Shown here in pieces: positions 20,619 through 47,849 of a stretch of DNA of 64,000 nt. The translations under genes and the position numbers were made by a program. Source of the stretch: Amia ocellicauda (Eukaryota > Chordata > Actinopteri > Amiiformes > Amiidae); assembly GCF_036373705.1 (NCBI RefSeq), contig NC_089864.1, positions 4,121,001 through 4,185,000 on the forward strand. The letters are read 5' to 3'. The stretch's first letter is position 1; each line of letters opens with the position of its first letter. Under the pieces are notes generated by a model that was given only the letters and a program-made list of their open reading frames with translations, searched no databases and was not told the origin of the DNA.

Positions 20619-22286
20619 ATGCTGATCTGCTGGATTGTTCTGGCTGTGACTGTCACTGCAGGTAGGAGATCAGGATTCTTGGTTTCTTTCTTTTGCATTA
20701 ATAAGCACATGACCAGTGGTGCTGCTGTGTCTCAGTCTGTCTCTGCACTGTGTCTCTCAGTCTCCTCAGATCCTGTCTCAGTGTCAGTGAGAGTCGGGGA
20801 CTCTGTCACTCTGCCCTGTGATGGATCAGCTTGCAGAGGGACTCCTGAAGAGCAGCTCTACATTAAGTGGGAGACAGTGGATCAGGATGTCTATGTGTTC
20901 AGGAGAGGCACAGTCCACCCCGGCCCTGGGTTTGAGAACAGAGCTGAGGTTCCCCTGGAGAGGATCAGACAGGGGGACTTCTCTCTGACCCTCCAGCACA
21001 CACTGCTCTCTGATGGAGAGATATACGAGTGTTTCTGTGAGGGAGAGAGAAAACGGGATGCTTTTCTTGGAGATGTTCGGCTCACCATCACAGGTAAGAG
21101 TGTGAATGTCTTTATGATTGAATGTCTGCTCTGTGGTTTCTGTGTGACTTTAACTGCTAACATTCTGCCCAAATAATGGCAACTTCAGGTTGTTTCTGTT
21201 TTAATGACCCAAGTCTCTCAAACTCTTCCCCATTCAGTCAGTCAGAGATTCACTGGGCAGCAGTCACTTTATCCTGGTTTCTTATGTACAACATGTCCTC
21301 TCCGCAGGCTGTAAGGAGAGCGCCTCTCTCTCCTATGGGCAGCCCCTGAGCCTCCGTCTGTACAGCAGGGCAGCTGTGACAGTGCGGTTTAACCCTGCGG
21401 GCACTGGAGCCTCTCTCCCAGTGTGTGCTGTAGAGGGCGGCACCGTGACCCCTGACCCTGCCTATGTGCCTCGAGTCTCAGGGCAGGAGCAGGAGGTCAC
21501 ACTGTCTGCACTGACCTTCACTGACCAGGGCACCTACACAGTGCTGGACTCCCAGAGCAGGACCATCAGCACTGTGAACGTCACTGTGACAGGTAGGACA
21601 GGGGCTGGGCTCTACTGGAGATCAGGGCTGTGATGAGAGACAGGACTCGGGCTGATGTTCTCCTGTTTCATCCTCTCAGCTCAGAGAGACGCCCTCACCC
21701 TGCCGTCTGGAGCCTCGCTGTCTCTCCCGCTCTACTCTCCTGGGCCGGTGGAGTTGCTGTTTGCTGCTGCAGGAGAGGGAGCCTGTGTCTCAGTGTGCGC
21801 TGTGGAGAGGGGCACAGCGAGCCGCCCTGGCCCCGGGTACGAGCACAGAGTGTCAGTGCAGAACGGTTCTCTGACCCTGCGCTCACTCACAGCAGCTGAC
21901 CAGGGAAACTACACACTGAGGGAGTCAGGGAACAACTGCACTGTCAGCAACGTCTCTGTGTCTGTGTGTGACACTGTGAGAGGTAAGAGCCTGTTATGTG
22001 ATAGTGAGTCCTAGAGTCCACAGATCACTGAAGAGCTGAAGCACAGCCGTGGCTGCTGCTCACTGACCCCTGAGGCTTTTTATCTCCCTTGTTGAAGCTG
22101 ATTGTATTTAACCCCCTTGAATTTACCTACCCTTGTCTTGCAGGGTCGGGGGTTCTCAGGAGGTCCAGGGTGGGTGCAGTGGTGGCAGTGCTGCTGCTTG
22201 TCACTGGGATTGCAGTGATCATTGGGCACGGACTGTGTTTCAGGGGAAGAGTGAGAGAGAGACGGACAGAATCTCAACAGGTCTGA
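20619..22286 (+). CDS. G5: IgSF receptor, array copy 4
   Basis: Exons: 20619-20661, 20761-21093, 21308-21592, 21680-21982, 22144-22286; 368 residues, same protein as G2-G4. It is the last array gene with the short Arg-rich tail (FRGRVRERRTESQQV at the C-terminus). The next unit downstream carries the same promoter and first exon but leads into the chimeric G6. Upstream, its unit has GGCGCG instead of TTCGCG just after the ISRE-like motif, as do the units of G3 and G6. Confidence 0.83.
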
Positions 22287-25200
22287 TGCCCAATAAGCAC
22301 ATGACTGATGCAGGCCGTTAAGGTAGTGAGCCCTGAATGACCGTGTCCTACAGAACTGTATTGCAAAGCCAGAGAAAAGGGAACAAAGCACTACAATGAG
22401 TGGCAAAATCCATAATGGCAATACTAATTCTGTGTATTATTTACACATAAATAAGCAGTGTGTGGGGGGGGGTATTAGTAAAAATGGTAGTCCCCACACT
22501 GTACCTGTAGGACTTCGGCTGATTCCTTTTAAAACACTTGTGTGTGACATAGCTTTGGGGGTGGAGGGGTATTCACTGCCAACCAACCAGCTCCCAGGGA
22601 CAACAGAATAATGGGAAAAAAAAAATCACTCAAATTGCTTCTCTTGGGAAAACAAAACGTGACCGATTATGGTGTTCATACAATGTGTGAATTGTTCCTG
22701 CACGATCCAAGATGGAGCCCAATCTATATTCTCTCCTAAAATTGAAACCCTTGTATTTAAAAACTATTTTTGCAGTCCACTCCAACTTTCACGGATATCA
22801 TCCCTGAAACCATTATAATTTGGAAAAAGTGTTATTCGTGCAAATGCTATCTTTGTCTCAAATGTTTTAGGAAAACCAATTTAAAACCAACCAGTATCAT
22901 CCCTACGGAAATGGATTTCAAATTGCTTAAAATTCCAGCTTCAAAAGAAGTCCATGTGTTTGTTTGGTTTTCTGCATTGTAGCCCTGAGCCTTTTGTTAG
23001 AGTCATGTGTGTCTCTCTCTCTCTCCACCCCAGATCCCATGTTCCTGTGAAGACTCAATCTCTCTGCCTCTGCCTTTTGATTAATCAAACCTCTAAGGGA
23101 TGAAAATGCTTCACCTATCTGTGCTCTAACGTGACCTTTTTCCCCACTACTGTTCAGTCTGTCCATACTCCTTTATAAGTGTACTGCTGAATTTGACTAT
23201 TGACCCTGAGACTTTTTTTCTCCCCTCAACATGTAAATATTTCTGTGTAATGTGTGTCTAAGCAGCAGAATCAGAATCCAAAAAACTCTCTCATTAAGAC
23301 TATTAAAATTTCAATTCAGCTATTAAATGCGCGCACGTGTATTTGTACAAGCTGAATATTTAGCAGTGAAATGGTCGGGTTCATGCGGGTTCATGCGGGT
23401 TGGGCCACTGATGTCTCTGCGGATTCTCCACACAACGTGAAGACCCAATGGAGCAGATCCTTCAACACTGTGTGCAGAGACCTGCAGTCAAAAGCTGCAC
23501 AATCACTGGATCCATACATGCAGCACTGAAACAAATCACAGGATCCACCTGCTACGTGCACAGTAACACGTTTAATATCATGTTCATATTAATGTCACCT
23601 GCAGAGCACTTTAATTCAGCTGCTCAGATAACAGCGCCAGACTGATGGAGATCACAGCCTTCAGCAAGAGGCAAGTGGAGGGGCATCGTATTCATTAAGA
23701 GCCTGTGATGTCCCAGTTTATGTTTAGGTCAGAAACACACACACACACACCAGGGTAAACTGTAGAAAACTCACTACAGTTATGAAGATCGATAATACAC
23801 TGTCTTCAATTCAATAAACATGTGAACAACAGATAATGATTGAAATATTTAAAATGAACGCAGTTTGCATTACGGCCGCATGGTGACGCAGTAAATAACC
23901 ACTAACAGATGCACTTTGCTTTTGTCAATATGTCGTGTCCATAACACCTATAACAAACACAGAGTGCCTTCAAAACAACACGCGTCCACACTTTCAGTTC
24001 CAACCCTCCTGTCGTCATTCAACGTCACTTTACCTGTCAGTCCAGTCACTTTACCAGCCGCTTTATCTGCGCTGATGCTGCAACGTCCCGTCAACGACTT
24101 GCTTTCACTTTCACTGCTGGCGCGCTTTTTTAAACTCTTTCTAACGGCATTGAGGAGAATGAATGGGAAATTACGTGAATGTCTCAAAACTGAAAAGATT
24201 AATGATCCTTTTCAATTGGAAGAATTAAAATCCGTTTAACTTTTCGGTGAGTACTGACCATATTTCTTTTTAAACTAGCAGTTAAGAGGAAATGATATGA
24301 ATGGTTTGTTGAGTTCATATATAGTTGCTTAATGATACATATAGTACAGTCATTCCTGCTATAACGCTGACATTTTTATAATGCAAAAACAAAAGAAACC
24401 TGCAAGCACTGCTGCAGTCAGACACTAATGCCCCGTTTCCAGCGGCGGAGCGTCCGGTTAATAAGGATAATAATGATCGTAGCAGCCGATGGTATTAATA
24501 TTGTATGAACAGCGGCCATACATGGTCAATGATTTGCCATCTGTATGCATACTCAACCACTTCTGTGACTGGTGTGTCTTTGCTGTCACTAAGGAAGGGG
24601 TCACTATTCCGATACAGCCACTTTCTTGATGTAATATAAATCAACTATCCACATAACTTGTTCTAGTGTATGATTATAAACCTCTATTTTATCACTTGCT
24701 TGGAGGCAGACCAAGCAACTTTTCCCCCTAAAGGGAATCCATCGCCATAATCTGGAAGCCCTCAGGTAGAAGAATCAGGTAGGGTAACAGGACAGTATGA
24801 GAAAGTTAATACTGATGGCAGTGATTATGAATCTGTATTATACTGCACACATTAATTTGTGGGACAGTTCATGAAGCTGCCTTTACAAAGTTAGGTTTAG
24901 CTCACATTCTCAAAATTGCCAATACAGTAAACGTTGTGTGAGTTTGTTAAATCTAAACTATGTTTATTGCATATGAATTGATCATTTAATTGTGCTTTTT
25001 TGGGTGAGCAGCATCATTGCCAGGTTAATCTTGTATTGTCCACAGTACAGTATAGTGATGTTTTACAATTAAAAGAAAAAAAATATGAAGCAAAATATTT
25101 AAGTTAAATGCATACATTAACAACAAACTACATAATCTACAGTAGTGAAACAGTCTGGTGGTGGTGTGCTAACTATTTCTCACATGAGAGACTGAGAATA

Positions 25201-25995
25201 TCTGGTGGCCACTAAGAGGTTAGTGTTCTCGGGAATGATTGCTTACCAAATAATGATTAGTTGCATGTTTAAAGACAAATACATGGGCATGATGAATTTA
25301 CACATCAATAATATGAGGAAGAAGAGAAATAAATGATAGAGGACAGGTTTAAAAGTATTAAGTTGTGTGTAGTGTTTATTGGTTTGGCCTGAATCCTGTT
25401 TTAGCATATATACTACAGAATTGCTTCTAATTACTGATATTATGGGGGGAATGAAACGGGCAAAGTTTCTGTTGTCATTCCTTTTTATGTTTCATTCTTT
25501 GTTCCTCTAATAAATATGTTTGATCACACAAAAAAGTTGTTGATTATTCAGGTGAGAGAGAGAGACACACTAGCAGTAAAAGTTTGGGCATTTTTGGTAA
25601 TTGACACGCTTTGTGCCGCAAGCTAGTGATCATAGTACAAATCAATGTAATGAAAAATCCATATCACTTTAGTGGCAGTTTCAGATACATTTACTAGTGA
25701 CTGTGATGAATACAAGAAAAGGCCCACAAAATAAAAGTTTCCCACACAGACACACACAATTGCTTCCTAGGACAATTAACCACCCTGTCCCCTCCTCCAG
25801 TGAAATCCTTAGTGTGGCCCCTGATCCTGCCATTTCATAATCTCTCTCCTGGCATGTTCTTGTGTACAGAATCCATTGTTTTCTAACTGCATTATCAAAT
25901 AATAGTAATACAAGTATGAATAGTTCTAATAATAACCATATCAATAATAGTAATAATAATACTACTGAAATTGTCTTCACTGCAGGACTCTCAGC
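22287..25995. other. Spacer between G5 and G6
   Basis: Last complete copy of the spacer; it still has the array promoter although the gene it leads to is chimeric. One private change (AAATCAATG for AAATAAATG) lies near 25641. Confidence 0.7.
24102..24246 (+). promoter_or_regulatory. Putative ISRE-type promoter and first exon driving chimeric G6
   Basis: ISRE core 24103-24112; donor after 24246. This array-type control region now precedes a receptor whose 3' half is of the G10 type, so the crossover may have changed how that receptor type is regulated. Confidence 0.5.
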
Positions 25996-28166
25996 ATGCT
26001 GATCTGCTGGATTGTTCTGGCTGTGACTGTCACTGCAGGTAGGTGATCAGGATTCTTGGTTTCTTTCTTTTGCATTAATAAGCACATGACCAGTGGTGCT
26101 GCTGTGTCTCAGTCTGTCTCTGCACTGTGTCTCTCAGTCTCCTCAGATCCTGTCTCAGTGTCAGTGAGAGTCGGGGACTCTGTCACTCTGCCCTGTGATG
26201 GATCAGCTTGCAGAGGGACTCCTGAAGAGCAGCTCTACATTAAGTGGGAGACAGTGGATCAGGATGTCTATGTGTTCAGGAGAGGCACAGTCCACCCCGG
26301 CCCTGGGTTTGAGAACAGAGCTGAGGTTCCCCTGGAGAGGATCAGACAGGGGGACTTCTCTCTGACCCTCCAGCACACACTGCTCTCTGATGGAGAGATA
26401 TACGAGTGTTTCTGTGAGGGACAGACAAAACAGGATGCTTTTCTCGGAGATGTCAGACTCACCATCACAGGTAAGAGTGTGAACGTCTCAATTTTCCTGT
26501 CCTAACCTGTCAAAACCTAGTTCATATTAATTATAAGGAACTCCCAATCACATTTAATGTTTCAGTATTAAATAATACAAAGTGTATTTTATGTTAATAC
26601 AATAACATAAGTCAAGGGAGTCATGTCAGTCTCTAGCGCTCATAGTGTTGTTTTCTGTCCTTGTTTTTAAAACGAAATGCAACACTATCCCACAATCGCT
26701 CTGCCTCTTCCCACAACAAGGATGGGTTTTATAAAATTAAATAAAAATTATAAAATAATATAATGACTTAAGAGAAGTTTTGATATGTTCCACATTGTCC
26801 TGTCCTCTCTCTGCAGCTCGTGAGGAGAGCAGCTCTGTCTCCTATGGGCAGCCCCTGAGCCTCCGTCTGTACAGCAGGGCATCTGTGACAGTGCGGTTTA
26901 ACCCTGCGGGCGCTGGAGCCTCTCTCCCAGTGTGTGCTGTAGAGGGCGGCACCGTGACCCCTGACCCTGCCTATGGGCCCCGAGTCTCAGGGCAGGAGCA
27001 GGAGGTCACACTGTCTGCACTGACCTTCACTGACCAGGGCTCCTACACAGTGCTGGACTCCCAGAGCAGAAAGACCATCAGCACTGTGAACGTCACTGTG
27101 ACAGGTAGGACAGGGGCTACACTAGATTTCTCAGCTCCAGGTGTTCATTGTCATTAACCATGTTCATTTTCTGTAAAATACATATATACATTATGACTTA
27201 AATGGAAGTCAGTCCTGATCTAAAATTAATTTATTCTCATTAAATCCCAAATCAGATTTGTTCGAATTGCTGTTTCCAGCCGTATTGATGGCCTCCTGTC
27301 TCCTAATGTCTCTCAGCTCACAGTGACGCCCTCACCCTGCCGTCTGGCACAGACCTGTGCGTCTCTCTGCTCACTGCAGAGCCGGTGGAGGTGCTGTTTG
27401 CTCCGGTGGGAGACCAAACCTCTGTCCCAGTGTGCGCTGTGGAGAGGGACACTGTGTTCAGACCCGGCCCCGGGTACCAGCCCAGAGTGTCAGTGCAGAA
27501 CGGCTCTCTGACCCTGCGCTCACTCACAGCAGCTGACCAGGGAAACTACACACTGAGGGAGTTAGACAGCAGCAACACCATTAACACCGTCTCTGTGTCT
27601 GTCACTGCAGAGGGTAAGTGTCCCTTTAATAACACTGTTATACACTGTATAGGGTGTGTCTCAGATCTGGTCCTTGGGGAACATTGACCTGATTTTACCT
27701 TTTAATTTATTAAAACATAAAGGCAATGTATTTGTGTAATTGGGTAATTTGAGAGTTTGGGTGGAACAAACAGCAGCAGGACAGTGAGCCCCAGACCCGG
27801 TCTGAGAAGAACTGCACTGTGTGACCAAACAACACTGGGACTGGAGTCCAGACTGAGGGCCCTGACATCAGTGCAGAAATGTGCTGAATGGACCTCTGTG
27901 CTGCTGTCCCACTGAGAGACCTCTACTGCAAGTGACAATATTAATTTTACATTTTTTTTCTTCTAGAATCACTGTGGGTTGGCCTGGTCACAGGGATCAC
28001 TTTGCTGATCTTAGCAGTGCTGGGACTCGCTCTGCTCTATTGGTACAGACGGTGTCGTCATAAGAAAGTGCCCCAGGTGCACAGTGTGCAGCCCACAGAC
28101 GAGGACTGTAATTCAGACCAGGAGGGCTCAGAGAGCTCCGCCCTGAAGACAAGCAGGCCAACCTGA
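25996..28166 (+). CDS. G6: chimeric IgSF receptor with array-type 5' end and G10-type 3' end
   Basis: Exons: 25996-26038, 26138-26470, 26817-27104, 27317-27613, 27967-28166; 386 residues. Signal peptide, intron 1 and most of D1 match the G2-G5 array. From about 26415 onward (end of D1, introns 2-4, D2, D3, TM exon) it matches the G7/G10 type. It therefore looks like an unequal-crossover product inside the D1 exon. D2 and D3 again lack the canonical Cys pair; D3 has an unusual Cys in strand B (TDLCVSLL). The TM segment follows ESLWVGL and ends near YWYRRCR. The tail ends at a TGA (28164-28166) where G10/G11 have CGA, so it is 17 residues shorter than theirs; the old stop is at 28215-28217. It is driven by an array-type upstream region. 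Probably functional, with a shortened tail of no known motif. Confidence 0.82.
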
Positions 28167-28650
28167 GACATAGCCAATGGGAACAGGAGTTTGATGGGGA
28201 GGGAACACATTGTGTAGATTGTGTCTGTGCTGTGTGTGTATTTCTCACTGGTGATAGTGGTCTTATCAGATTGGAAGAGTCATTATTTTCTTGTATTTTC
28301 CAAGATCAATGTGGCACCTGTGGCTATATTTGTATCATCTTGTATCATCTGTACACTTGGAATTCATTTTTATTTTCTAAATCACTGCAATTGTACATAT
28401 TTTTTAAATTATATATTCACAGTACACCTATAACTAGTTTCTCCAGGGCTGAGGTGCTGGTGGCTTCCGCTCCTGAGACCCACTGCAGGACTGTGGGGAT
28501 GTAAATATATATTCACTTTAGTCACAGTTGTGTTTTTAATGATTGTTTTGTATTGAACCTGAATTGTGCACACTCACAGAAATGTGTATTTAAATGTGAT
28601 GCCTTTTGAGACAACTAGATACATTTCTTCCACTTCCTATGGTTTTGTAA

Positions 28651-28656
28651 AATAAA
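28651..28656 (+). other. Poly(A) signal of G6
   Basis: AATAAA, 434 bases after the ancestral stop codon position, in a stretch conserved after G10 and G11. Confidence 0.55.
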
Positions 28657-28679
28657 TGCATTCTCGTTTGTTTTATATG

Positions 28680-31620
28680 AAGTGTAGTGTGTGCGGGTTT
28701 GTGAGCCGATAACCTCACTCTGCATGAATTTGTAAATTCCCTCTGTTATGAATGTCTCATCTTACTGCAGAATTACAGCCACAGCCAAGATGTAACAAGA
28801 TTATTGATTTAGTTCTACATATAAATTGTCCCCCACTTCACTTTGCTACGTGTATTGACCTCCTATAGCTGAGTATTTTGACTCATTCTTGTTTTGCATG
28901 TGATGTAATCGCTCCACACAGCCCTCTGAAACGGCAGCGATCAAGAGAGCAATTTTAATTAGATCAGCTTTTCGTAGGGAACGAGTACTGAGAAATCACA
29001 AATATAATTTGTTTCATTCATGTTTTGCCATTTGAGCGCTACAGATTCAGTCGTCAACGTATAATGTACCTAACTTGCTTTGACAGTAACGCAGACTCAG
29101 TTCAAAATACCGGCAATGCTGCTGCTACAAGGTTATATGCAATTTAAGTAACAGGTAATCCTATCGTTATAGTTTTATAAAATACATTTTTATCCATAAA
29201 GTCATTGTTGCTGTACAGATCCACATCAAGGCACATCAGGACCAAATGAGGCAGATTTTGTGAACGGGAAATCATTTCACAGCATTAATGTACAGATGCT
29301 TATGACTTTAATGACAATTTGAACGACAATTAGACCTATACAATGCCTCTTCTAGACAGTAGGGTATCAGATTTTGGATAATACTGTACACCATCCATGA
29401 CTTGACCTCAGTTATTCCTATGATTTGTGAATCCACCTGCCTCATTTCAAATATTGAACCCAAGTGCCCAGGCTCTGTGCATGATTCTACATTGTGTCAG
29501 AGATTCGAGGAAGGTGTAGGAAACAAACTTATTTGTCAGAAATCATTGCTTAAATATTTATTTTTTGAAGTGATCTAATAGTGTTCATGTCATAGGTCAA
29601 TGTGATGGGATGTCCTGTTAATTTGGCTAAAAATGCAGATGCAGATTAATTAACAGATTAATTAGTCCAACATAATACTAAAGTATTATACATTTAAAAT
29701 CAGACACCCAGATAAGAACTTCATAGAATTTATACAGAATATCATTTAGAGATGTTACTGAATTGCGTTCCTCAGACAGGGTAGAAGTGCCTGACTGCTG
29801 GATGTGTACAGCTTTTCTGGTGATAAATTCTCAGTCGTTAGGGGGGCTAGTTTTGTGTTGTTGATGAACCGTGCCGCTCCTGCAAACCCCCACCGCGGTG
29901 CTGAGAGCAGGACGTGCTGCTTGTGAAGCCCCTCCACTGCAGTGTGATCCTGTCAGGGCATCAGTGGGATGACTGTGTGAACTGTTTCGGTGAAGCAAAT
30001 TCTTAATAAAACGTTCAAATATTCAACTGTGTCGGTTTGGTCTTTATAACTCACCCTGTTATTATGGTTATTTATTTATTTATGTATGTATTTTCTATTT
30101 ATTTTTTATCGGTTTTCTCTATTTCTAGCCCATCTCTCTTTTTCTGTGCCTGATTGTTTTGTGTTAACCCTATCTCACTACAGACTTGCTGGATTCACGC
30201 ATGATCCGGTGTGACTCTAGTGTGACTGTGTCTCCCTGCGCTTGTCTTTCGCTGTCGTCTCTAAGGTTGCTGCTCCCTCTGGCCTCTGTCTGTATTGTGT
30301 TTATGTGCTGCTAGGTAGGTCTCATTACTTGAGATGCTGAGACTGGAGATTATTTTTCTAGAACAAGTATAAATCTACTTAATGAATACACATACCTAAT
30401 GAATACACATACTTAATGAATGATACATATTTAATATGTCTAAAGTTACTTTAGTATTTTTTAATTTATGTTTTTCTTAACATCATGGGGTGCATTCTTT
30501 ATTTCTGTAAGAAAGTTACTACTATAAGGCCTCTGTTTGACCTTGGAGAGTTATCTAACTAGCAAAGAGAGCTGTGCTCAGTTAAATGTCAGTTATTTAC
30601 TGTATTTCTTAAGTTAAATAAGTGTGGTTTAGTTTCATTTACTTACTGTCATTATTAAAATTGTGTTTTCGTTCTTTATGTCTGTACATAAGTTACTAGT
30701 GTGTTGTACTGAAGTCTGTTCAAATGTCTTACTGTCAATACAACCAAGACCATTAAGGTCTTCAGACTGCACCCCCAAGCTATTGTAATGTGTAAATTAT
30801 ATAAATATACATACACACATAGGTTTTTGCTTAAATCATATTGTGTATTTACTTTTTGCATGGATTACATTAGATATTTATTTAAAATAATTTGATGTTT
30901 TGTTACTAATATTATTACAAATGCTGATTTTATTGAGTTGTATTGAAATTTCCCAGTTTCTACATATATAGTCTATGCTTCTTTTATAACATATATATTC
31001 TATAATTCTTCTTTATTTAAGGATTTCTTAACTTAACTTAGTAACGTTACATTTCATTTACATTGCACGCTGTTGTGAATACACACACACACCTTTAAAA
31101 CTTAATAATTGTATTTATTCAATCTTTACATTGTATCTGTTCTTTAAATAATACATTTGATATATTCTGAAATGCAAGAAAATATTGGTCTTGGGTAGGT
31201 GTAGTATTTACTGAGATTATGCTGATTACTGAAAGTTTTAATTTACATTTTCTGTATTACATTTCTTTTCATTTTGCTCATATTCAGGATTTTCTAAAGT
31301 TCAGTCCATCTTGTGTCTCTCAAGCTGTCCACAGCCCCCACCGCTTCTACAGATCGCTATCTCTCAACACTATCCGGGGCCCGGGGGGCCCATCGCCTCA
31401 AATGTAAACAGAGCCGCATCTTAAATTGAAAACAGACCCCAGCTGTCATCAGTGCCCTGTCAACTCCGCCCCCAAATATACTAATTCTTCACCGATCCGA
31501 GGTTACTAAAGACGTAGACATCTCCTCGCCACCCCCACTAGCTCAAAAAGCTCCAGACTGACATAACCCTTGTCCATTTGAAAGAGGTAACCGCTTTGGC
31601 CCTGTTGAAGAGACAGCCTC
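28680..31620. other. Non-coding flank after G6
   Basis: AT-rich. The part to about 30300 recurs after both G10 and G11; the remainder recurs only after G11. A short GC-richer patch near 29760-29990 has a 60-codon reverse frame in all three copies, but nothing recognisable. No gene is supported. Confidence 0.6.
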
Positions 31621-32309: not shown

Positions 32310-33060
32310 ATTTCATGTGACAACTTGCCTCAATCAGACTGTTATGCTAACTTCATGCTGACTACCTGACATGATGTAGCACAGCCTTCCAGACAAAGAA
32401 TCAAAACATAACTGAGTCCTTCCTTTATTCCAGTTCTATTTTTTGAAAACCCCAATGTCACAGAGTTTTATTACTAACGTAGTGGGACACCTTTCCTTTC
32501 TTGGTGGTAAAACATGAAAGTTGTGCTCACCTCAATGTTTTGTGACTTTCAGTTGTAATAACACAGTCATTGACCTCAGATGAAGGAGACACATTTTTTG
32601 ATGTTACATTTTTGTGTCAGAGCCCTCCCTCTAGACTGGTAGATCAACTTAACCATATGACAGCCAGCTCTGTTCTCCCGGTTATTGTTTGTAACCGTTG
32701 ATGTAGGTGGTTGCTGGCACACCTGTGCTGAAGATAAAGCCAACACATGCTGTTTCCTGTCTGGTTTGCACTAAAGGAAAATGGCTACTGAGTGAGAATA
32801 CTACAGAGACATACTGAGAGGATATTTGGGTTGGTGAGTTGGGACACGGCTTGATCGGCAATCGCTGTGTGTCTTATTCTTGTGTTTGGTCATCCTCCCA
32901 CCTCAGACTTTCTTCTGTGTTTTACGTTGGTGTGTTTTATTGCTGTGCATCACACATGCACTGCTCACTTTTAATTTACTTTAGCTCCGCAGTGTTTAAA
33001 AATAGGATTGCGTACCCCTGCCTAGTATTTTAAATGACCTTCGTTGTCCAAATTGTCTGT
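32310..33060. other. Unassigned spacer before the G7 duplication
   Basis: No gene, RNA or repeat recognised. The stretch ends at the left breakpoint of the 4630-bp duplication. Confidence 0.5.
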
Positions 33061-33675
33061 CTGGTTTTATTCTATTACTGTTCAGAGTATGTGAAAATTG
33101 AGTATCTGCAGTAATTGTGCCTTAGGCTTTTCAGTGACATGTATCTATTTATTGATTTACTTACTGAGATCTGTGTACAAGATTATCAATTTATATTGCT
33201 GTTTTGGCTTCAAACCTACTCACATCTCCTTATGAGATTATAGATGTGTGTGTATTTATAAATATGTTGTTTATTCACATTATTTAATATTCATTCTATG
33301 ATACTGAATTATTTGTGGCTCTCTGGTATTACCCTGTTATTTCAGACTCTTGAATCAGTAAATCTGTTTTGCTAATGTAAAGTATTGGATCTTTTAGGAC
33401 ACTGTAAGGACAATATATTAATGGTGTGTGTATAATAAATAAGTTATTTGCCATAATTGTTGGCTTGTTGTCCTGCATACAACCCTGCAGTCACTCTTGT
33501 CTCACCCAGTTTGAGATCTAGGAGGTCATGAGAGGTCACTCACCTTTTTTAAGGTGGCATAGTCATTTGCATATTCTAAATCATTTGAATATATAAAGAG
33601 TAGCATGCTTCACTACACTTACAACTTCTGCTTATAAAACATTCTTACTCTGATTCGTTGACTGGCTGATAGAGG

Positions 33676-33785
33676 GGTGTGGACTGGCGTACTATCATTT
33701 GCCATTATCTATGCTTTCCGGGATCGGCTCCAGTGATCCACATGGATAAGCGGTTTCGACGATGGATGGATGGATGGATGGATGT
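33676..33785 (+). mobile_element. 3' tail of an L2-type LINE or derived SINE
   Basis: GGACTGGCGT, GGGATCGGCTCCAG and GGATAAGCGGTTTCGA are followed by a GATG tetranucleotide run. This word order is typical of 3' ends of fish L2-clade LINEs and the SINEs that use them. Only the tail is present. Confidence 0.55.
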
Positions 33786-34336
33786 AACAAACCTTAAAAA
33801 CAGATGGAATTATGAATCCTTGATTCATGCTGGGACACAGACAGGTTCATATTCAACAGCTTGTCCTGCTGGGTCTTTTAATAATAAACCTAATACACAT
33901 TTAAGGAAAAGCCCTGCAAAGTTGCAAATTCAGTTATATTTTACCTGTGACTGTGGAAAATAAATGAGAATCCACAAAAACTATTAGTTTCCCCACACAG
34001 ACTTAAACCTATTTCATAGTACTCTATTCAATACAGTCGTTTTAGGATTGCATAGGATTATTGTATAATGAACCCTCGTATAAATCCCCTCTTCCTCTCC
34101 CACTAGCCATCTTTCTCTCTCAATTACCTGTGACTCCACCACCCTCTATCCTCCTCCTTCACCACGACAAACTTAGATCTGCCTCGATCCCAATCTTTCA
34201 TATTCGATATATATCTTTCCTTGCATGTGTCTGCCATTTCATTCTGATCAGTGGTTACAGGACCCATTTTCTCCGGACTGTGTGACTAAACAATAATATT
34301 CAAAGTAATAATAGTCTTCTCAACAGGTGTCTCAGC

Positions 34337-36745
34337 ATGAGGATCTGCTGGATTGTTCTGGCTGTGACTGTCACTGCAGGTAGGAGTTCAGGATTCTCTG
34401 TCTTACTCTATCTTTTCCATTAATAAGCACATGACCAGTGGTGCTGCTGTGTCTCAGTCTGTCTCTGCACTGTGTCTCTCAGTCTCCTCAGATCCTGTCA
34501 CAGTGTCAGTGAGAGTCGGGGACTCTGTCACTCTGCCCTGTGATGGATCAGCTTGCAGAGGGACTCCTGTAGAGCAGCTCTACATTAAGTGGCAGACAGT
34601 GGATCAGGATGTCTATGTGTTCAGGAGAGGCACAGTCTACCCCGGTCCTGGGTTTGAGAACAGAGCTGAGGTTCCCCTGGAGAGGATCAGACAGGGGGAC
34701 TTCTCTCTGACCCTCCAGCACACACTGCTCTCTGATGGAGAGATATACGAGTGTTTCTGTGAGGGACAGAGAAAACAGGATGCTTTTCTCGGAGATGTCA
34801 GTCTCACCATCACAGGTAAGAGTGTGAACGTCTCAATTTTCCTGTCCTAACCTGTCAAAACTCACAACCTAGTTCATATTAATTATAAGGAACTCCCAAT
34901 CACATTTAATGTTTCAGTATTAAATAATACAAAGTGTATTTTATGTTAATACAATAACATAAGTCAAGGGAGTCATGTCAGTCTCTATCGCTCATAGTGT
35001 TGTTTTCTGTCCTTGTTTTTAAAACGAAATGCAACACTATCCCACAATCGCTCTGCCTCTTCCCACAACAAGGATGGGTTTTATAAAATTAAATAAAAAT
35101 GATAAAATAATATAATGACTTAAGAGAAGTTTTGATATGTTCCACATTGTCCTGTCCTCTCTCTGCAGCTCGTGAGGAGAGCAGCTCTGTCTCCTATGGG
35201 CAGCCCCTGAGCCTCCGTCTGTACAGCAGGGCAGCTGTGACAGTGCGGTTTAACCCTGCGGGCGCTGGAGCCTCTCTCCCAGTGTGTGCTGTAGAGGGCG
35301 GCACCGTGACCCCTGACCCTGCCTATGTGCCTCGAGTCTCAGGGCAGGAGCAGGAGGTCACACTGTCTGCACTGACCTTCACTGACCAGGGCTCCTACAC
35401 AGTGCTGGACTCCCAGAGCAGGACCATCAGCACTGTGAACGTCACTGTGACAGGTAGGACAGGGGCCGGGCTCTACTGGAGATCAGGGCTGTGATGAGAG
35501 ACAGGACTCGGGCTGATGTTCTCCTGTTTCATCCTCTCAGCTCACGGAGACACCCTCACCCTGCCGTCTGGAGCTTCGCTGTCTCTCCCACTCTACTCTC
35601 CTGGGCCGGTGGAGGTGCTGTTTGCTGTTGCAGGAGAGGGAGCCTGTGTCTCAGTGTGCCCTGTGGAGAGGGACACAGTGTTCAGTCCTGGCCCCGGGTA
35701 CGAGCAGAGAGTGTCTGTGCAGAGCGGCTCTCTGACCCTGCGATCACTCACAGCAGCTGACCAGGGAAACTACACAGTGAGGGAGTCCAGCACCGACCAC
35801 ACCATCAGCAACGTCTCTGTGTCTGTCACTGCAGAGGGTACGTGTCCCTATAATAACACTGTTATACACTGTATAGGGTGTGTCTCAGCTCTGGTGCTTG
35901 GGGCGCACTGACCTGATTTTATTTAATTAAACTTAATTGAACTCACAATAATCATAAGCGACATTTTACATTATCTGAAACAGTTGAACATTAGAAGTTA
36001 GATATAAAATGATAAGGCACTTGTATTCAATAACATTTTGTAAGATTAACAAATTAAGAAGTCAAATTATGCAAATTATGAAATTAAGTATCTGAATACT
36101 AGAGCCAGCAAGTCCTTGGGGCTTGGGTTCATTAATGTACCTGTTCAATGGTACCCACAGTACAAAGCAACGTACACTTTTATAGGGCTACACTATATCA
36201 TGGCAAATGTTCTTTATTAAAGCAATGTATTAGTGTAATTGGGTCATTTGAGAGCTTAGGTGGAACAAACAGCAGACAGTGAGCCCCAGACCCGGTCTGA
36301 GAAGAACTGCACTGTGTGACCAAACAACACTGGGACTGGAGTCCAGACTGAGGGCCCTGACATCAGTGCAGAAATGTGCTGAATGGACCTCTGTGCTGCT
36401 GTCCCACTGAGAGACCTCTACTGCAATACTCAGTGACCAAAGTCATTTTACTGCTTTGTTGTTTCTCTTCTAGAATCGGTGTTCCCGGTTGGCCTGGTCA
36501 CAGGGATCTTAGTGCTGATCTCAGTGCTGGGACTCGCTCTGCTCTGCTGGTACAGATGGTGTCGCAATAAAGAGCGTGTGAGGATCACCGAGCCCCAGGT
36601 GCCCAGTGTGCAGCTCACAACCCAGGACTGCAGCTCAGAGCAGGAGGGCCCAGAGATCTCCACCCTGATGAGGAACAGACACACCCCGGCCAAAGCCAAT
36701 GGGAACGGGAGTGTGATGAATCAGGTGGTAAATTCAGTCCTTTAG
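34337..36745 (+). CDS. G7: IgSF receptor with longer cytoplasmic tail (tandem pair, copy 1)
   Basis: Exons: 34337-34379, 34483-34815, 35169-35453, 35541-35837, 36474-36745; 409 residues. The signal peptide begins MRICWIVLAV. D1 is V-type with both Cys pairs (CDGSAC and ECFC). D2 and D3 lack the canonical Cys pair. The TM segment is about 325-346 and the tail about 63 residues (347-409), with acidic/Ser-rich stretches and no Tyr, so no ITIM or ITAM. Structure is mosaic: intron 2 (353 bases) is like G10, intron 3 (87 bases) is like the G2 array, and intron 4 is longest (636 bases). A splice acceptor (CAACAG ending at 34326) lies just before the start, so a 5' UTR exon must lie upstream. Inferred: surface receptor or ligand; partner unknown. 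Confidence 0.84.
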
Positions 36746-37207
36746 AAACTATTGGAGCAATTATCTCAAAATCTATGGCCTCCTGAGGGAAGAATTCCCT
36801 TCTCTGACTTGCTTAATTGATTAAACGCTCCCATGTGTTCCCAGTATTTAGAAACTGGTGATTTAGGGTGACCCACAAGATTAAGTGGATTGGGGCTCTC
36901 CAGGACTAGGGTTGGACACCCCTGGTGTAGATTGTGTTTGTGTGTGTATTTCTTCCTGTTTCTAGAGGTCTTATCAGATTGGAAGAGTAATAATGTTCTT
37001 GTATTTTGCAAGATCAATGTGGCACCTATGGTTATATTTGGATATATTATAACATATAACATAACCAGTTTCTCCAGGGCTGAGATGCTGGTGGCTTCAG
37101 CTCCTGAGACCCACTGCAAGACTGTGGGCATGTAAATATGTTCACTTTGTCACAGTTGTGTTTTTAATTATTGTTTGGTATTGAACCTGATTTTCCTAAC
37201 CCTGTTA
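36746..37207. other. 3' flank of G7
   Basis: A stretch near 36891-36925 (GGGGCTCTCCAGGACTAGGG, then TTGGACACCCCTGG) resembles the end of a common vertebrate DNA-transposon remnant. No clear AATAAA. Duplicated at 41376-41837. Confidence 0.45.
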
Positions 37208-37690
37208 TACAGTGAGGGAAAAAAGTATTTGATCCCCTGCTGATTTTGTACGTTTGCCCACTGACAAAGAAATGATCAGTCTATAATTTTAATGGTAGGT
37301 GTGTTTTTACAGTGAAAGACAGAATAACAACAACAAAATCCAGAAAAACGCATTTCAAAAAAGTTATAAATTGATTTGCATGTTAATGAGTGAAATAAGT
37401 ATTTCACCCCTTCGACTTAGTACTTGGTGGCAAAACCCTTGTTGGCAATCACAGAGGTCAGATGGCCACCAGGTTTGCACACATCTCAGGAGGGATTTTG
37501 TCCCACTCCTCTTTGCAGATCCTCTCCAAGTCATTAAGGTTTCGAGGCTGAGGTTTGGCAACTCGAACCTTCAGCTCCCTCCACAGATTGTCTATGGGAT
37601 TAAGGTCTGGAGACTGGCTAGGCCACTCCAGGACCTTAATGTGCTTCTTCTTGAGCCACTCCTTTGTTGCCTTGGCTGTGTGTTTTGGGT
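37208..37690 (-). mobile_element. Tc1 element fragment cut by the duplication junction
   Basis: Starts with TACAGTGAGGG like the full element at 41838, and includes the terminal inverted repeat and the 3' end of the transposase on the reverse strand. It stops at the 4630-bp duplication joint and is a by-product of that event, not a separate insertion. Confidence 0.85.
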
Positions 37691-38305
37691 CTGGTTTTAT
37701 TCTATTACTGTTCAGACTATGTGAAAATTGAGTATCTGCAGTAATTGTGCCTTAGGCTTTTCAGTGACATGTATCTATTTATTGATTTACTTACTGAGAT
37801 CTGTGTACAAGATTATCAATTTATATTGCTGTTTTGGCTTCAAACCTACTCACATCTCCTTATGAGATTATAGATGTGTGTGTATTTATAAATATGTTGT
37901 TTATTCACATTATTTAATATTCATTCTATGATACTGAATTATTTGTGGCTCTCTGGTATTACCCTGTTATTTCAGACTCTTGAATCAGTAAATCTGTTTT
38001 GCTAATGTAAAGTATTGGATCTTTTAGGACACTGTAAGGACAATATATTAATGGTGTGTGTATAATAAATAAGTTATTTGCCATAATTGTTGGCTTGTTG
38101 TCCTGCATACAACCCTGCAGTCACTCTTGTCTCACCCAGTTTGAGATCTAGGAGGTCATGAGAGGTCACTCACCTTTTTTAAGGTGGCATAGTCATTTGC
38201 ATATTCTAAATCATTTGAATATATAAAGAGTAGCATGCTTCACTACACTTACAACTTCTGCTTATAAAACATTCTTACTCTGATTCGTTGACTGGCTGAT
38301 AGAGG

Positions 38306-38415
38306 GGTGTGGACTGGCGTACTATCATTTGCCATTATCTATGCTTTCCGGGATCGGCTCCAGTGATCCACATGGATAAGCGGTTTCGACGATGGATGGA
38401 TGGATGGATGGATGT
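38306..38415 (+). mobile_element. Duplicated copy of the LINE/SINE tail
   Basis: Same tail, carried along in the 4630-bp duplication rather than inserted independently. Confidence 0.55.
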
Positions 38416-38966
38416 AACAAACCTTAAAAACAGATGGAATTATGAATCCTTGATTCATGCTGGGACACAGACAGGTTCATATTCAACAGCTTGTCCTGCT
38501 GGGTCTTTTAATAATAAACCTAATACACATTTAAGGAAAAGCCCTGCAAAGTTGCAAATTCAGTTATATTTTACCTGTGACTGTGGAAAATAAATGAGAA
38601 TCCACAAAAACTATTAGTTTCCCCACACAGACTTAAACCTATTTCATAGTACTCTATTCAATACAGTCGTTTTAGGATTGCATAGGATTATTGTATAATG
38701 AACCCTCGTATAAATCCCCTCTTCCTCTCCCACTAGCCATCTTTCTCTCTCAATTACCTGTGACTCCACCACCCTCTATCCTCCTCCTTCACCACGACAA
38801 ACTTAGATCTGCCTCGATCCCAATCTTTCATATTCGATATATATCTTTCCTTGCATGTGTCTGCCATTTCATTCTGATCAGTGGTTACAGGACCCATTTT
38901 CTCCGGACTGTGTGACTAAACAATAATATTCAAAGTAATAATAGTCTTCTCAACAGGTGTCTCAGC

Positions 38967-41375
38967 ATGAGGATCTGCTGGATTGTTCTGGCTGTGACTG
39001 TCACTGCAGGTAGGAGTTCAGGATTCTCTGTCTTACTCTATCTTTTCCATTAATAAGCACATGACCAGTGGTGCTGCTGTGTCTCAGTCTGTCTCTGCAC
39101 TGTGTCTCTCAGTCTCCTCAGATCCTGTCACAGTGTCAGTGAGAGTCGGGGACTCTGTCACTCTGCCCTGTGATGGATCAGCTTGCAGAGGGACTCCTGT
39201 AGAGCAGCTCTACATTAAGTGGCAGACAGTGGATCAGGATGTCTATGTGTTCAGGAGAGGCACAGTCTACCCCGGTCCTGGGTTTGAGAACAGAGCTGAG
39301 GTTCCCCTGGAGAGGATCAGACAGGGGGACTTCTCTCTGACCCTCCAGCACACACTGCTCTCTGATGGAGAGATATACGAGTGTTTCTGTGAGGGACAGA
39401 GAAAACAGGATGCTTTTCTCGGAGATGTCAGTCTCACCATCACAGGTAAGAGTGTGAACGTCTCAATTTTCCTGTCCTAACCTGTCAAAACTCACAACCT
39501 AGTTCATATTAATTATAAGGAACTCCCAATCACATTTAATGTTTCAGTATTAAATAATACAAAGTGTATTTTATGTTAATACAATAACATAAGTCAAGGG
39601 AGTCATGTCAGTCTCTATCGCTCATAGTGTTGTTTTCTGTCCTTGTTTTTAAAACGAAATGCAACACTATCCCACAATCGCTCTGCCTCTTCCCACAACA
39701 AGGATGGGTTTTATAAAATTAAATAAAAATGATAAAATAATATAATGACTTAAGAGAAGTTTTGATATGTTCCACATTGTCCTGTCCTCTCTCTGCAGCT
39801 CGTGAGGAGAGCAGCTCTGTCTCCTATGGGCAGCCCCTGAGCCTCCGTCTGTACAGCAGGGCAGCTGTGACAGTGCGGTTTAACCCTGCGGGCGCTGGAG
39901 CCTCTCTCCCAGTGTGTGCTGTAGAGGGCGGCACCGTGACCCCTGACCCTGCCTATGTGCCTCGAGTCTCAGGGCAGGAGCAGGAGGTCACACTGTCTGC
40001 ACTGACCTTCACTGACCAGGGCTCCTACACAGTGCTGGACTCCCAGAGCAGGACCATCAGCACTGTGAACGTCACTGTGACAGGTAGGACAGGGGCCGGG
40101 CTCTACTGGAGATCAGGGCTGTGATGAGAGACAGGACTCGGGCTGATGTTCTCCTGTTTCATCCTCTCAGCTCACGGAGACACCCTCACCCTGCCGTCTG
40201 GAGCTTCGCTGTCTCTCCCACTCTACTCTCCTGGGCCGGTGGAGGTGCTGTTTGCTGTTGCAGGAGAGGGAGCCTGTGTCTCAGTGTGCCCTGTGGAGAG
40301 GGACACAGTGTTCAGTCCTGGCCCCGGGTACGAGCAGAGAGTGTCTGTGCAGAGCGGCTCTCTGACCCTGCGATCACTCACAGCAGCTGACCAGGGAAAC
40401 TACACAGTGAGGGAGTCCAGCACCGACCACACCATCAGCAACGTCTCTGTGTCTGTCACTGCAGAGGGTACGTGTCCCTATAATAACACTGTTATACACT
40501 GTATAGGGTGTGTCTCAGCTCTGGTGCTTGGGGCGCACTGACCTGATTTTATTTAATTAAACTTAATTGAACTCACAATAATCATAAGCGACATTTTACA
40601 TTATCTGAAACAGTTGAACATTAGAAGTTAGATATAAAATGATAAGGCACTTGTATTCAATAACATTTTGTAAGATTAACAAATTAAGAAGTCAAATTAT
40701 GCAAATTATGAAATTAAGTATCTGAATACTAGAGCCAGCAAGTCCTTGGGGCTTGGGTTCATTAATGTACCTGTTCAATGGTACCCACAGTACAAAGCAA
40801 CGTACACTTTTATAGGGCTACACTATATCATGGCAAATGTTCTTTATTAAAGCAATGTATTAGTGTAATTGGGTCATTTGAGAGCTTAGGTGGAACAAAC
40901 AGCAGACAGTGAGCCCCAGACCCGGTCTGAGAAGAACTGCACTGTGTGACCAAACAACACTGGGACTGGAGTCCAGACTGAGGGCCCTGACATCAGTGCA
41001 GAAATGTGCTGAATGGACCTCTGTGCTGCTGTCCCACTGAGAGACCTCTACTGCAATACTCAGTGACCAAAGTCATTTTACTGCTTTGTTGTTTCTCTTC
41101 TAGAATCGGTGTTCCCGGTTGGCCTGGTCACAGGGATCTTAGTGCTGATCTCAGTGCTGGGACTCGCTCTGCTCTGCTGGTACAGATGGTGTCGCAATAA
41201 AGAGCGTGTGAGGATCACCGAGCCCCAGGTGCCCAGTGTGCAGCTCACAACCCAGGACTGCAGCTCAGAGCAGGAGGGCCCAGAGATCTCCACCCTGATG
41301 AGGAACAGACACACCCCGGCCAAAGCCAATGGGAACGGGAGTGTGATGAATCAGGTGGTAAATTCAGTCCTTTAG
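38967..41375 (+). CDS. G8: IgSF receptor with longer tail (tandem pair, copy 2)
   Basis: Exons: 38967-39009, 39113-39445, 39799-40083, 40171-40467, 41104-41375; 409 residues. Every predicted exon product is the same as in G7, 4630 bases upstream. The duplication that made it is very young or is kept uniform by gene conversion. The 3' flank keeps the full Tc1 element (41838-43302), whereas after G7 that element is cut by the duplication junction. This suggests that G8 with its 3' flank keeps the original right-hand neighbourhood. Confidence 0.83.
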
Positions 41376-41837
41376 AAACTATTGGAGCAATTATCTCAAA
41401 ATCTATGGCCTCCTGAGGGAAGAATTCCCTTCTCTGACTTGCTTAATTGATTAAACGCTCCCATGTGTTCCCAGTATTTAGAAACTGGTGATTTAGGGTG
41501 ACCCACAAGATTAAGTGGATTGGGGCTCTCCAGGACTAGGGTTGGACACCCCTGGTGTAGATTGTGTTTGTGTGTGTATTTCTTCCTGTTTCTAGAGGTC
41601 TTATCAGATTGGAAGAGTAATAATGTTCTTGTATTTTGCAAGATCAATGTGGCACCTATGGTTATATTTGGATATATTATAACATATAACATAACCAGTT
41701 TCTCCAGGGCTGAGATGCTGGTGGCTTCAGCTCCTGAGACCCACTGCAAGACTGTGGGCATGTAAATATGTTCACTTTGTCACAGTTGTGTTTTTAATTA
41801 TTGTTTGGTATTGAACCTGATTTTCCTAACCCTGTTA

Positions 41838-43302
41838 TACAGTGAGGGAAAAAAGTATTTGATCCCCTGCTGATTTTGTACGTTTGCCCACTGACAAAGA
41901 AATGATCAGTCTATAATTTTAATGGTAGGTGTGTTTTTACAGTGAAAGACAGAATAACAACAACAAAATCCAGAAAAACGCATTTCAAAAAAGTTATAAA
42001 TTGATTTGCATGTTAATGAGTGAAATAAGTATTTCACCCCTTCGACTTAGTACTTGGTGGCAAAACCCTTGTTGGCAATCACAGAGGTCAGATGGCCACC
42101 AGGTTTGCACACATCTCAGGAGGGATTTTGTCCCACTCCTCTTTGCAGATCCTCTCCAAGTCATTAAGGTTTCGAGGCTGAGGTTTGGCAACTCGAACCT
42201 TCAGCTCCCTCCACAGATTGTCTATGGGATTAAGGTCTGGAGACTGGCTAGGCCACTCCAGGACCTTAATGTGCTTCTTCTTGAGCCACTCCTTTGTTGC
42301 CTTGGCTGTGTGTTTTGGGTCATTGTCATGCTGGAATACCCATCCACGACCCTGGCTGAGGGAAGGAGGTTCTCACCCAAGATTTGATGGTACATGGCCC
42401 CGTCCATCGTCCCTTGGATGCGGTGCAGTTGTCCTGTCCCCTTAGCAGAAAAACACCCCCAAAGCATAATGTTTCCACCTCCATGTTTGACGGTGGGGAT
42501 GGTGTTCTTGGGGTCATTCCTCCTCCTCCAAACACAGCAAGTTGAGATGATGCCAAAGAGCTCGATTTTGGTCTCATCTGACCACAACACTTTCACCCAG
42601 TTCTCCTCTGAATCATTGTTACCAATTGTTTCTTTGGTGACTATGGTCCCAGCTGCCTTGAGATCATTAACAAGATCCTCCCGTGTAGTTCTGGGCTGAT
42701 TCCTCACCGTTCTCATGATCATTGAAACTCCACGAGGTGAGATCTTGCATGGAGCCCCAGACCGAGGGAGACTGACAGTTATTTTGTGTTTCTTCCATTT
42801 GCGAATAATCGCACCAACTGTTGTCACCTTCTCACCAAGCTACTTGGTGATGGTCTTGTAGCCCATTCCAGCCTTGTGTAGGTCTACAGTCTTGTCCCTG
42901 ACATCCTTGGACAGCTCTTTGGTCTTGGCCATGGTGGATAGTTTGGAATCTGATTGATTGATTGCTTCTGTGGACAGGTGTCTTTTATACAGGTAACGAG
43001 CTGAGATTAGGAGAGTCCCTTTAAGAGAGTGCTCCTAATCTCAGCTCGTTACCTGTATAAAAGACACCTGGGAGCCAGAAATCTTGCTGATTGATAGGGG
43101 ATCAAATACTTATTTCCCTCATTAACATGCAAATCAATTGATAACTTTTTTGAAATGCGTTTTTCTGGATTTTTTTGCTGTTATTCTGTCTCTCACTGTT
43201 AAAATACACCTACCATTAAAATTATAGACTGATCATTTCTTTGTCAGTGGGCAAACGTACAAAATCAGCAGGGGATCAAATACTTTTTTTCTCCTCACTG
43301 TA
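41838..43302 (-). mobile_element. Defective Tc1 element with IR/DR-type ends
   Basis: Ends CAGTGAGG and CCTCACTG between TA dinucleotides (41838-41839 and 43301-43302). Terminal inverted repeats are about 200 bp. The word AAGTATTT recurs at their outer and inner ends (about 41853 and 42027), the IR/DR layout of the Sleeping Beauty/Passport group. Between 42973 and 43070 there is a second inverted repeat around ACAGGTAACGAGCTGAGATT. It looks non-autonomous. Confidence 0.85.
42047..42932 (-). pseudogene. Broken Tc1 transposase
   Basis: Starts [11 protein letters not shown] at 42932 and ends at 42047. It keeps [20 protein letters not shown] and VLWSDETK (first catalytic Asp). It has an early in-frame TAG near 42840, lacks about 40 residues between TIGN and NDSEENW, and shifts frame just before the second catalytic Asp region. 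It cannot make an active enzyme. Confidence 0.85.
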
Positions 43303-43649
43303 ATCTGGCCCTTATTCTGCATGTTTTCACACTCTGCCTTGCGTGTTGTACTGGGATTTCCCATTGCAGTCCTCAAATTGTATATTATTTGATTTCCATA
43401 TAAAATACTGCATTATTCTAATACTTATACCACTTCTAATAATTATAATAATACTACAGTAAATATATGTACATGGGGCTTTAATAGATTATTTGTATTA
43501 TTATTCAGTCGTCACAACTCTGCTACGAATCCTGGTAAAAAAATACCCTACATACCTAATTTCATTACCTATAATATAGCATATTGTCTATGATTTGATC
43601 ATGCTTTAAAGTATTTAACCATGTGGTTTCCCTTTTTAATACTGTACTA
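43303..43649. other. AT-rich spacer between two Tc1 elements
   Basis: No feature seen. Confidence 0.5.
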
Positions 43650-44874: not shown

Positions 44875-44914
44875 TACTAATACTTATTGCACTTCTAATA
44901 TATACTATCAAGGT

Positions 44915-45325
44915 CTCACCTACTATTCCTTCAGCTCACCACCAGAGGTCTCTCTCTCCCGAGTATTAATCCCGGTGCTTCTTTCTCTCAGTTCCCGCAT
45001 CACTCAGTCACATTACATTCCTTCTATTCACGTGCACTTGTTCTGTCTTTCCCTCTCCCCATTGGTCTTTCACCCTTTACCCAGTCATCCCTTTGTCCCT
45101 TAGCATAATCGCTAAGTCTTGTCTTCTCTCCTGAAACATTTCTGAGCATTATTCCTTGTTTAGACTCCTGTCTTCCTGTCCTTGATCATCTCTTTTGGAT
45201 CCCCTGAACTATTCCTGTTTTCCCTTCTCTATTTCCCCTCTTGGATTGTTTGCCTTTCTGCTTTGCTACTAAAGAGCCTGCACTTGGATCTATACACCTT
45301 GCCTTTGAGAAACGTTACATATATA
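44915..45325. repeat. Possible solo-LTR-like remnant
   Basis: The words CACCAGAGGTCTCTCTCTCC, GCACTTGGATCTA and a GTTACA end are reminiscent of LTRs of fish retrotransposons. No internal region is present. Family unassigned; degraded and probably old. Weak, by-eye call. Confidence 0.25.
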
Positions 45326-45980
45326 TTACATTAATCTTGTTTAATACCGTTTTATATTCTAATATGCATTCTACTTCTACAAATAATTTATACTACATTA
45401 AATTAATTGAATACTGTATTATAAACTTACTTATTTAACATCTAATACTAATAGAAATACATTATTTTTGTTTAATTTTGTTTAATACAGTTTTACATAC
45501 TAATACATATTAGTACTTCTACTAGGCTACTAGTAATAATGATACTACATTACATTTAGCTTTGATACAGATTCATATTATTCACTACTCATACCTACAT
45601 CTCAATTAATTCCCTGTACATTATACTGTATATACATTTTATTATACCATAATATACTATAATACACATTTATACCATATTACACATTTATACTATAGCA
45701 TACTATAGTATATTGTACTTACTACACTACTACATGTACATACTGCTTACTATACTCACATATACTTTCACATGCAGACAAAGTTTCTTAAGGAACTTTA
45801 GCATTCTAGTTTAGTATAGTAAACTTAAAATACCTACTTTTATAGAACCTCATACTATTTTCAGACACTAAAACAATAATGCCAACAAGTCAGACTATGT
45901 ATGTTGGGCTTGGTTTTAAATGTGATGCAGCTTCATCTGCCCCCCACACAAACACTAGAACAGCTGTGAAGTCACAGTTC
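45326..45980. other. AT-rich low-complexity spacer
   Basis: Runs of TATACTA/ATACTA-type words, densest near 45640-45740. No gene. Confidence 0.6.
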
Positions 45981-47515: not shown

Positions 47516-47523
47516 ATCTAAGC

Positions 47524-47849
47524 CAGTGGTTCCCAAACCAGTCCTGGGGGACCCTCTACCCTGTTGGGTTTTGTTCTAACCGAGCTCTCAATTGCTTAAT
47601 TGAACCTTATTTGAAGTAACAATCTGCTTAGATTTTATTTTAAATTGTGTAAGAAAATAGTTGTTTCTTCATGACATTTTTAATATAATTATATACTTAA
47701 CTTAAAACCCTTACGGTTTAAAATAATTAAAAGTCTCTAATTTAGGGAATTATTAGTTCAATTAAGGTTTAAATTAAGTAATTAAGAGCTCGGTTGGAAC
47801 AAAAACCAGCAGGGTAGGGGGTCCCCCAGGACTGGTTTAGGAACCACTG
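47524..47849. mobile_element. Foldback hAT-like MITE
   Basis: The ends CAGTGGTT and AACCACTG continue into long inverted arms (CCAGTCCTGGGGGACC and its complement). Flanks ATCTAAGC and CTCTAAGC match at 7 of 8 bases, an 8-bp target duplication as made by hAT transposases. No coding capacity. Confidence 0.75.

Follow-up and report, generated by a model that had tools for sequence, protein, structure and literature searches.

The window analysed here is the whole stretch of 64,000 nucleotides at C21:4121001-4185000, from a genome of 988 Mb in 385 contigs. It contains tandem Ig-type receptor genes composed of a signal exon, a V-set domain exon (D1), two Ig-like domain exons (D2 and D3) and a transmembrane/tail exon; judged by the look of the genes and elements, the host of the cluster is probably a fish. 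Genes in the window are named G1-G11, and neighbours outside it have E-numbers that follow their chromosome position, with r for the minus strand. Statements on the 5' exon and the array body refer to the contiguous 144 kb at chr 4091001-4235000; the search with the 5' segment of G6 (segment H, see below) covered these 144 kb plus six shorter stretches further right.

The gene G6 lies on the plus strand. Its signal-peptide exon (25996-26038, MLICWIVLAVTVTA) is of the type found in the array genes G2-G5, and is followed by the hybrid exon D1 (26138-26470). D1 can be compared with CD276 (B7-H3) and other V-set proteins: it matches the Pfam V-set profile above the cut-off (E 2.3e-10), and CD276 was the top match among the solved structures in the PDB (E 7.9e-14). 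The Ig-like exons D2 (26817-27104) and D3 (27317-27613) of G6 match Ig profiles below the curated cut-offs (V-set E 0.033 and 0.001). D3 shares 99% identity with G10/G11 and 82% with the array, and the transmembrane/tail exon (27967-28166, stop codon at 28164-28166) is also G10-type. The open frame is intact, with 386 codons (387 with the stop), and the four introns between the coding exons all have canonical GT/AG splice sites. The predicted proteins of G2-G5 are identical, with 368 residues each.

Two very recent tandem duplications are present at window 33059-42321 (G7/G8, 99.98% identical) and 53689-62613 (G10/G11, 99.91%). An open frame of 346 codons without interruption is located at 43684-44724 (minus strand), which we take to resemble a Tc1/mariner-type transposase. 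Further clusters at C1:10.5-10.98 Mb and C21:2.0-2.38 Mb contain D2-like (93-97%) and D3-like (80-85%) exons, some of them in many near-identical copies.

Array-type 5' segment and control region

Segment H of G6 (23119-26421, plus strand) comprises the 3' flank of G5, the control region, the 5' exon, the signal exon and most of D1, and shares 99.4-99.7% identity with the other array copies. Among the best 40 candidates scored, the part 23130-25940, which is nearly all of H, occurred five times, every time in the array; the remaining matches listed were internal repeats, namely 24522-25597 and a short repeat at about 23469-23750 that is found on many contigs. The dispersed repeat at 24522-25597 lies in the 5' intron, has matches of 79-88% on C8, C20, C7, C11, C27, C22 and C1, and is probably a DNA transposon. 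The search with H added matches beyond this listing: the stretch 23100-23328 is a 3' flank common to array and D bodies (97-98% beside G9, E4117r and E4198r), and short pieces of 25664-25761 show 73-84% identity upstream of G7, G8, E4107, E4187 and the gene at 4228881. The gene types B, C and D are those of the repeated blocks described below. Homology between H and the upstream DNA of the B-type genes starts only at 25949. Over the 300 bases upstream, G5 is 100% identical to G6, whereas G10 is covered over 19% at 81%.

A putative 5' non-coding exon is located at 24158-24246 (plus strand, start approximate), with the donor GTGAGT at 24247. A homologue in which the donor is conserved lies at chr 4223348 and shares 81% identity over 69 bp; the gene at 4228881 follows about 5.5 kb downstream of it. 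Genes of the array, B, C and E4228 types all retain an AG acceptor ahead of the signal exon, which is consistent with an upstream non-coding exon in each type. An ISRE-like core (GAAAGTGAAA) is predicted at 24103-24112 on the minus strand, and the same site is present in all five H copies. The window holds seven GAAANNGAAA cores against a mean of 2.9 in 100 shuffles, and five of the seven are this repeated site. The spacer of the B genes also has its own GAAANNGAAA core at 51714, with the same site in the other two spacer copies, and this weakens the idea of the ISRE as an array-only feature. Near chr 4223348, a strict scan for an ISRE-like core gave its nearest match at 4222126, about 1.2 kb upstream. 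From these features, transcription of G6 is predicted to start at the array-type 5' exon, with expression like that of the array genes. That the ISRE-like region might now drive a different tail type, as proposed in an earlier sequence-only reading, is plausible.

Change of type inside exon D1

The same reading described G6 as a crossover-type chimera with a G10-type body behind an array-type 5' region, and the comparison bears this out. Up to 26421, G6 shares 99.4-99.7% identity with G2-G5; from 26422 onward, the match is to G10/G11, at about 99% across D2, D3, the transmembrane exon and the 3' flank. Comparison of 21401-30500 with the window gave array matches of 99.4-99.7% up to 26488, and matches to G10/G11 of about 99% from 25949 to 30298 (G10) or to at least 30500 (G11), so that the two types of match overlap over 25949-26488. 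In the five-copy alignment of H, only two private bases distinguish G6 from the other four copies (25643 and 26044, the latter base also occurring in two genes outside the array), and it departs from all four starting at 26422.

Columns that are informative between the array and G10/G11 gave the same picture. G6 is array-type at 18 of 18 columns over 25952-26248 (five are gap columns). From 26432 it is G10-type, apart from the array-type site 26438 and several others that agree with neither type; the alignment closes with seven array-type calls in its final column, which are an end artefact. Among the exon-only sites, G6 is array-type in the signal peptide (2/2) and in D1 up to 26248 (2/2), and G10-type in D2 (11/11) and D3 (56/56); the D1 sites after 26421 comprise three G10-type, one array-type and one of neither type. 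For the 75 scorable exon sites, the best split was matched in 0 of 20000 permutations. Since the last array-only site is 26248 and the first departure is 26422, the switch lies inside D1, within 26249-26421. The similarity thus changes sharply along the gene and the breakpoint falls inside the exon, as had been claimed; its placement at about 26415 was over-precise, and the real limit is this interval.

Right of the switch, 100-base tiles over 27100-30200 showed that G6 shares 98-100 bases with both G10 and G11 (the last G10 tile is 30200). The other genes compared reach at most 91 identical bases or have no match, with two exceptions: G7, G8, E4187 and E4107 reach 99-100 in tile 27800, and E4202 tracks G10 (98-100) in the tiles up to 27600. 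The description of the introns as G7/G10-type holds for intron 2 only, which is 97-98% identical in G7, G10, G11, E4187 and E4202 and has no match in G5. Intron 1 is array-type, and intron 3 has matches limited to G10, G11 and E4202, without G7. Intron 4 and the transmembrane exon are about 100% identical in G10 and G11, intron 4 over its full length; in E4107, G7 and E4187, intron 4 shows 91-92% identity over just 66% and the transmembrane exon 77-78%.

The proteins of G6 and G10 differ at nine positions within their shared length; left of the breakpoint, the differences are limited to residue 2 of the signal peptide and residue 52 of D1 (E for Q). The V domain had been called hybrid; this is true of the exon, which is chimeric, but trivial in the protein, and a functionally hybrid domain was set aside because of this single D1 residue. 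The base at 28164 gives G6 its stop, whereas G10 and G11 read through; the final exon accounts for 66 residues of G6, against 83 of G10/G11, and the tail is shorter by 17. A YxxL/I/V motif was found in none of the five transmembrane/tail exons examined (G6, G10, G11, G7 and the array), so that a swap between activating and inhibitory tails has no support. The main change in G6 would be in its control region rather than in its protein.

Repeated blocks and neighbouring mosaic genes

Self-comparison of the contiguous 144 kb revealed a C(+)-D(-)-B(+) gene block that occurs three times. Block 1 includes the C gene E4107, the D body of E4117r and the B body of G6; block 2 includes G7 with its copy G8 (C), G9 (D) and G10 with its copy G11 (B); and block 3 includes E4187 (C), E4198r (D) and E4202 (B). 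The left side of block 1 (-10341 to -3306) is 99.1% identical to 42617-49654 and 98.4% to block 3. On the right side, 25969-37691 matches 58273-70003 at 99.3%, and G6 with its right flank is collinear with G11 for 11.7 kb (99.33%). Between these sides, the part from -3286 to 751 aligns in reverse with 54334-50284 (98.15%) and also with block 3 (98.2%); minus D1, the spacer of block 1 shares 99.54% identity with both other spacers over 3250 bases. The D/B spacer of block 2 (50284-54334, minus strand), with D1 exons at its ends, is collinear with block 3 and inverted relative to block 1. The reverse match indicates that the D/B spacer of block 1 is inverted, and its B-type 5' end therefore fronts the body of E4117r. 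On this sequence evidence, G6 is by position the B gene of block 1 with an exchanged 5' end, and not plain 'array plus G10'.

Just outside the left edge of the window, the gene E4117r (chr 4117179-4118210, minus strand) combines a B-type 5' end with an array/D-type body. Its upstream DNA and intron 1 are 100% identical to G10, and its transmembrane exon and 3' flank are 99% identical to the array and G9; D2 and the start of D3 are absent. In G6 numbering, its sequence as far as 26257 is other than D-type, and D-type sequence runs from 26477 onward, so that its switch interval overlaps that of G6. The combination opposite to that of G6 is present nearby in this gene, though inverted. Four pairings of 5' end and body exist: array/array (G2-G5), array/B (G6), B/B (G10 and G11) and B/array (E4117r). 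By four-gamete reasoning, these require recombination between the 5' end and the body.

Other mosaic genes were also observed. G1 (window 1-1603) has a D-type 5' end, a divergent D1, D2 and a partial D3 that is fused at about 1603 to the array 3' flank, and it looks like a pseudogene. Its D-type sequence, with one substitution relative to G9, extends through base 539, and divergence begins at window 540. The type change of G1 falls at the start of D1 or in its first 43 bases, whereas the switches of G6 and E4117r are inside D1; G1 was not accepted as a third gene switching inside D1 proper, as the data show only that the D type is lost before D1 base 44 (window 540). Another mosaic is E4202 (C21:4202569-4205300), with a B-type 5' end, G10-type exons to D3 and a different tail exon.

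The 3' end of D1 in G6 (D1b, 26422-26470, plus strand) is closest to the inverted neighbour E4117r, and less close to G10. Over 26422-26472, G6 shares 50 of 51 bases with E4117r and 92% with G10. G6 and G11 differ by 20 substitutions over 26422-30290, of which five fall in the 36 bases 26422-26457; random placement gave clustering as tight in 6 of 20000 trials. A table of 14 genes, which did not include G2-G4 and G8 (their D1 agrees with G5 and G7 in a separate alignment), showed 26426 C and 26457 A in G6 and E4117r only, as expected if both genes descend from block 1. The likeness fits a common block-1 origin or a conversion patch. The patch rules out that the D1 end of G6 was taken unchanged from a G10-like copy, and together with the array-type base 26438 it shows that a single clean crossover with such a copy did not take place.

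Origin of the mosaic and related receptor systems

In the surrounding 144 kb, the D1 exons share 94-98% identity with that of G6, except for those of G1 and the gene at 4228881 (84-85%). The control regions, introns and tails in the cluster are of distinct types, many of them not alignable; crossovers would thus be channelled into D1. We infer, with a probability of about 0.8, that D1 acted as a homology island, and that non-allelic recombination in D1 gave the B gene of block 1 an array-type 5' end. G6 would have started as a B-type gene in the first of the three C-D-B blocks. An inversion of the spacer through inverted D1 copies might have preceded or accompanied the exchange. Non-allelic homologous recombination in D1 would then have swapped in the array control region, the 5' exon, the signal exon and most of D1. 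The outcome would be an intact receptor gene with three Ig domains and a transmembrane part, under an array-type control region.

A wider model is more tentative, and we would not yet favour it. This model treats D1 as an island of recombination: where D and B genes stand head to head, their inverted D1 copies would allow the shared spacer to flip, with an exchange of 5' ends. The rearrangement of one block would have yielded both G6 and E4117r, and 5' ends would assort independently of bodies. Against a spacer inversion, also as part of the preferred reading, E4117r has neither D2 nor the start of D3, and G1, at the other end of the inverted spacer, continues into a divergent D1 and not into a B body; the intermediate of the inversion model is thus not preserved.

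The direction of the exchange in D1 can be judged from the introns. A G10-type intron 2 is present in seven genes (G6, G7, G8, G10, G11, E4187 and E4202); an insertion in intron 1 is shared by all of these but G6. E4208 has array-like sequence in both intron 1 (98%) and intron 2 (88%, two thirds covered). Without the insertion, and given the pairing in E4208, the G6 combination looks derived; G6 is more likely the derived gene, with moderate confidence. Intron 2 is D-like in both E4107 and E4117r, but intron 1 is array-like and free of the insertion in the former, whereas the latter carries the insertion. These pairings indicate that introns 1 and 2 have been separated more than once, so that the marker of direction is a weak one.

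The opposite direction is improbable. It would make the array genes the chimeras and G6 their parent: an H-type gene with a B body would have recombined in D1 with a gene that had an array body, the product being amplified into G2-G5, and G6 would mark the right edge of the tandem array. G6 does lie in exact array register, its signal exon following that of G5 at a distance of 5377, and the H copies of the other genes resemble each other no more than they resemble the one in G6. At the left edge, G1, with its D-type 5' end, array/D-like D2 and partial D3, would fit the left parent. However, D2/D3 of G1 share 95.7-95.9% identity with the array and 96.8% with G9, compared with 99.5% right of 1599. 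Moreover, the combination of introns in E4208 makes that of the array look older, and the G6 combination is seen in G6 alone.

Overwriting of the 5' half of G6 by gene conversion is still less probable, although the D1b patch and the discordant site 26438 resemble conversion tracts within D1. The replaced stretch has about 2.8 kb left of 25949 without a B-type upstream match, in exact array register. A conversion tract over all of H would lack a left homologous anchor there, whereas a crossover needs D1 only; crossover rather than conversion is therefore suggested. An assembly misjoin of array and B-gene sequence at the shared D1 is very improbable: D1 is near-identical over about 300 bases and the region holds the very recent duplicates G7/G8 and G10/G11, but the locus sits in a 31-Mb contig or scaffold, which suggests long reads, and G6 is no plain collage, as it differs from the array copies on the left (25643, 26044) and from G10 (19/3883 columns) and G11 (29/6585) on the right.

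Recombination in D1, as preferred here, can be compared with known systems. Fish NITR, DICP and similar receptors form clustered, fast-changing multigene Ig families, and ITIM/ITAM-type tails occur in many KIR and NITR. The present cluster may resemble NITR/DICP in this, and the tails examined here have no YxxL/I/V motif. A five-term literature query for fish chimeric receptor genes with promoter exchange gave no match. According to an excerpt of PMC6563257, human Fc gamma receptor IIC (FCGR2C) is a chimeric gene from unequal crossing-over that links two duplicated modules; like G6, it is an Ig-type receptor with the extracellular part of one neighbour gene and the tail of another. The FCGR2C tail described in that excerpt brings an ITAM-like motif, whereas the G6 tail has no YxxL/I/V and the main change is in the control region. 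The primate KIR, in the excerpted part of PMC7516082, are also clustered Ig-like receptor genes with fusions through recombination, and a promoter swap between KIR3DP1 and KIR2DL5 was proposed. In comparison with that account, the exchange in G6 took place within the V-set exon beside an inverted spacer, and the tails lack YxxL/I/V. By analogy, G6 would represent the known kind of event behind the FCGR2C and KIR fusions; the likeness is one of event, not of family membership. The unusual part of the G6 case is the detail of the record, as the inverted spacer next to it has kept a B-type 5' end, now in front of an array/D-type body.

The sequence gives G6 the appearance of a promoter swap that arose naturally among clustered immune receptor genes. 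One 3.3-kb 5' segment is common to the four array genes with identical predicted proteins and to G6 with its different body, which would separate the effect of the control region from that of the body. As the inverted spacer keeps the B-type 5' end, the history of the swap may be tested in related species and haplotypes. If the flipping of spacers is true, 5' ends and bodies would be independently assorting modules, and G6 and E4117r would come from one rearranged block. The formation of such chimeras would be an ordinary accident in clusters of this kind, which is here traceable in unusual detail.
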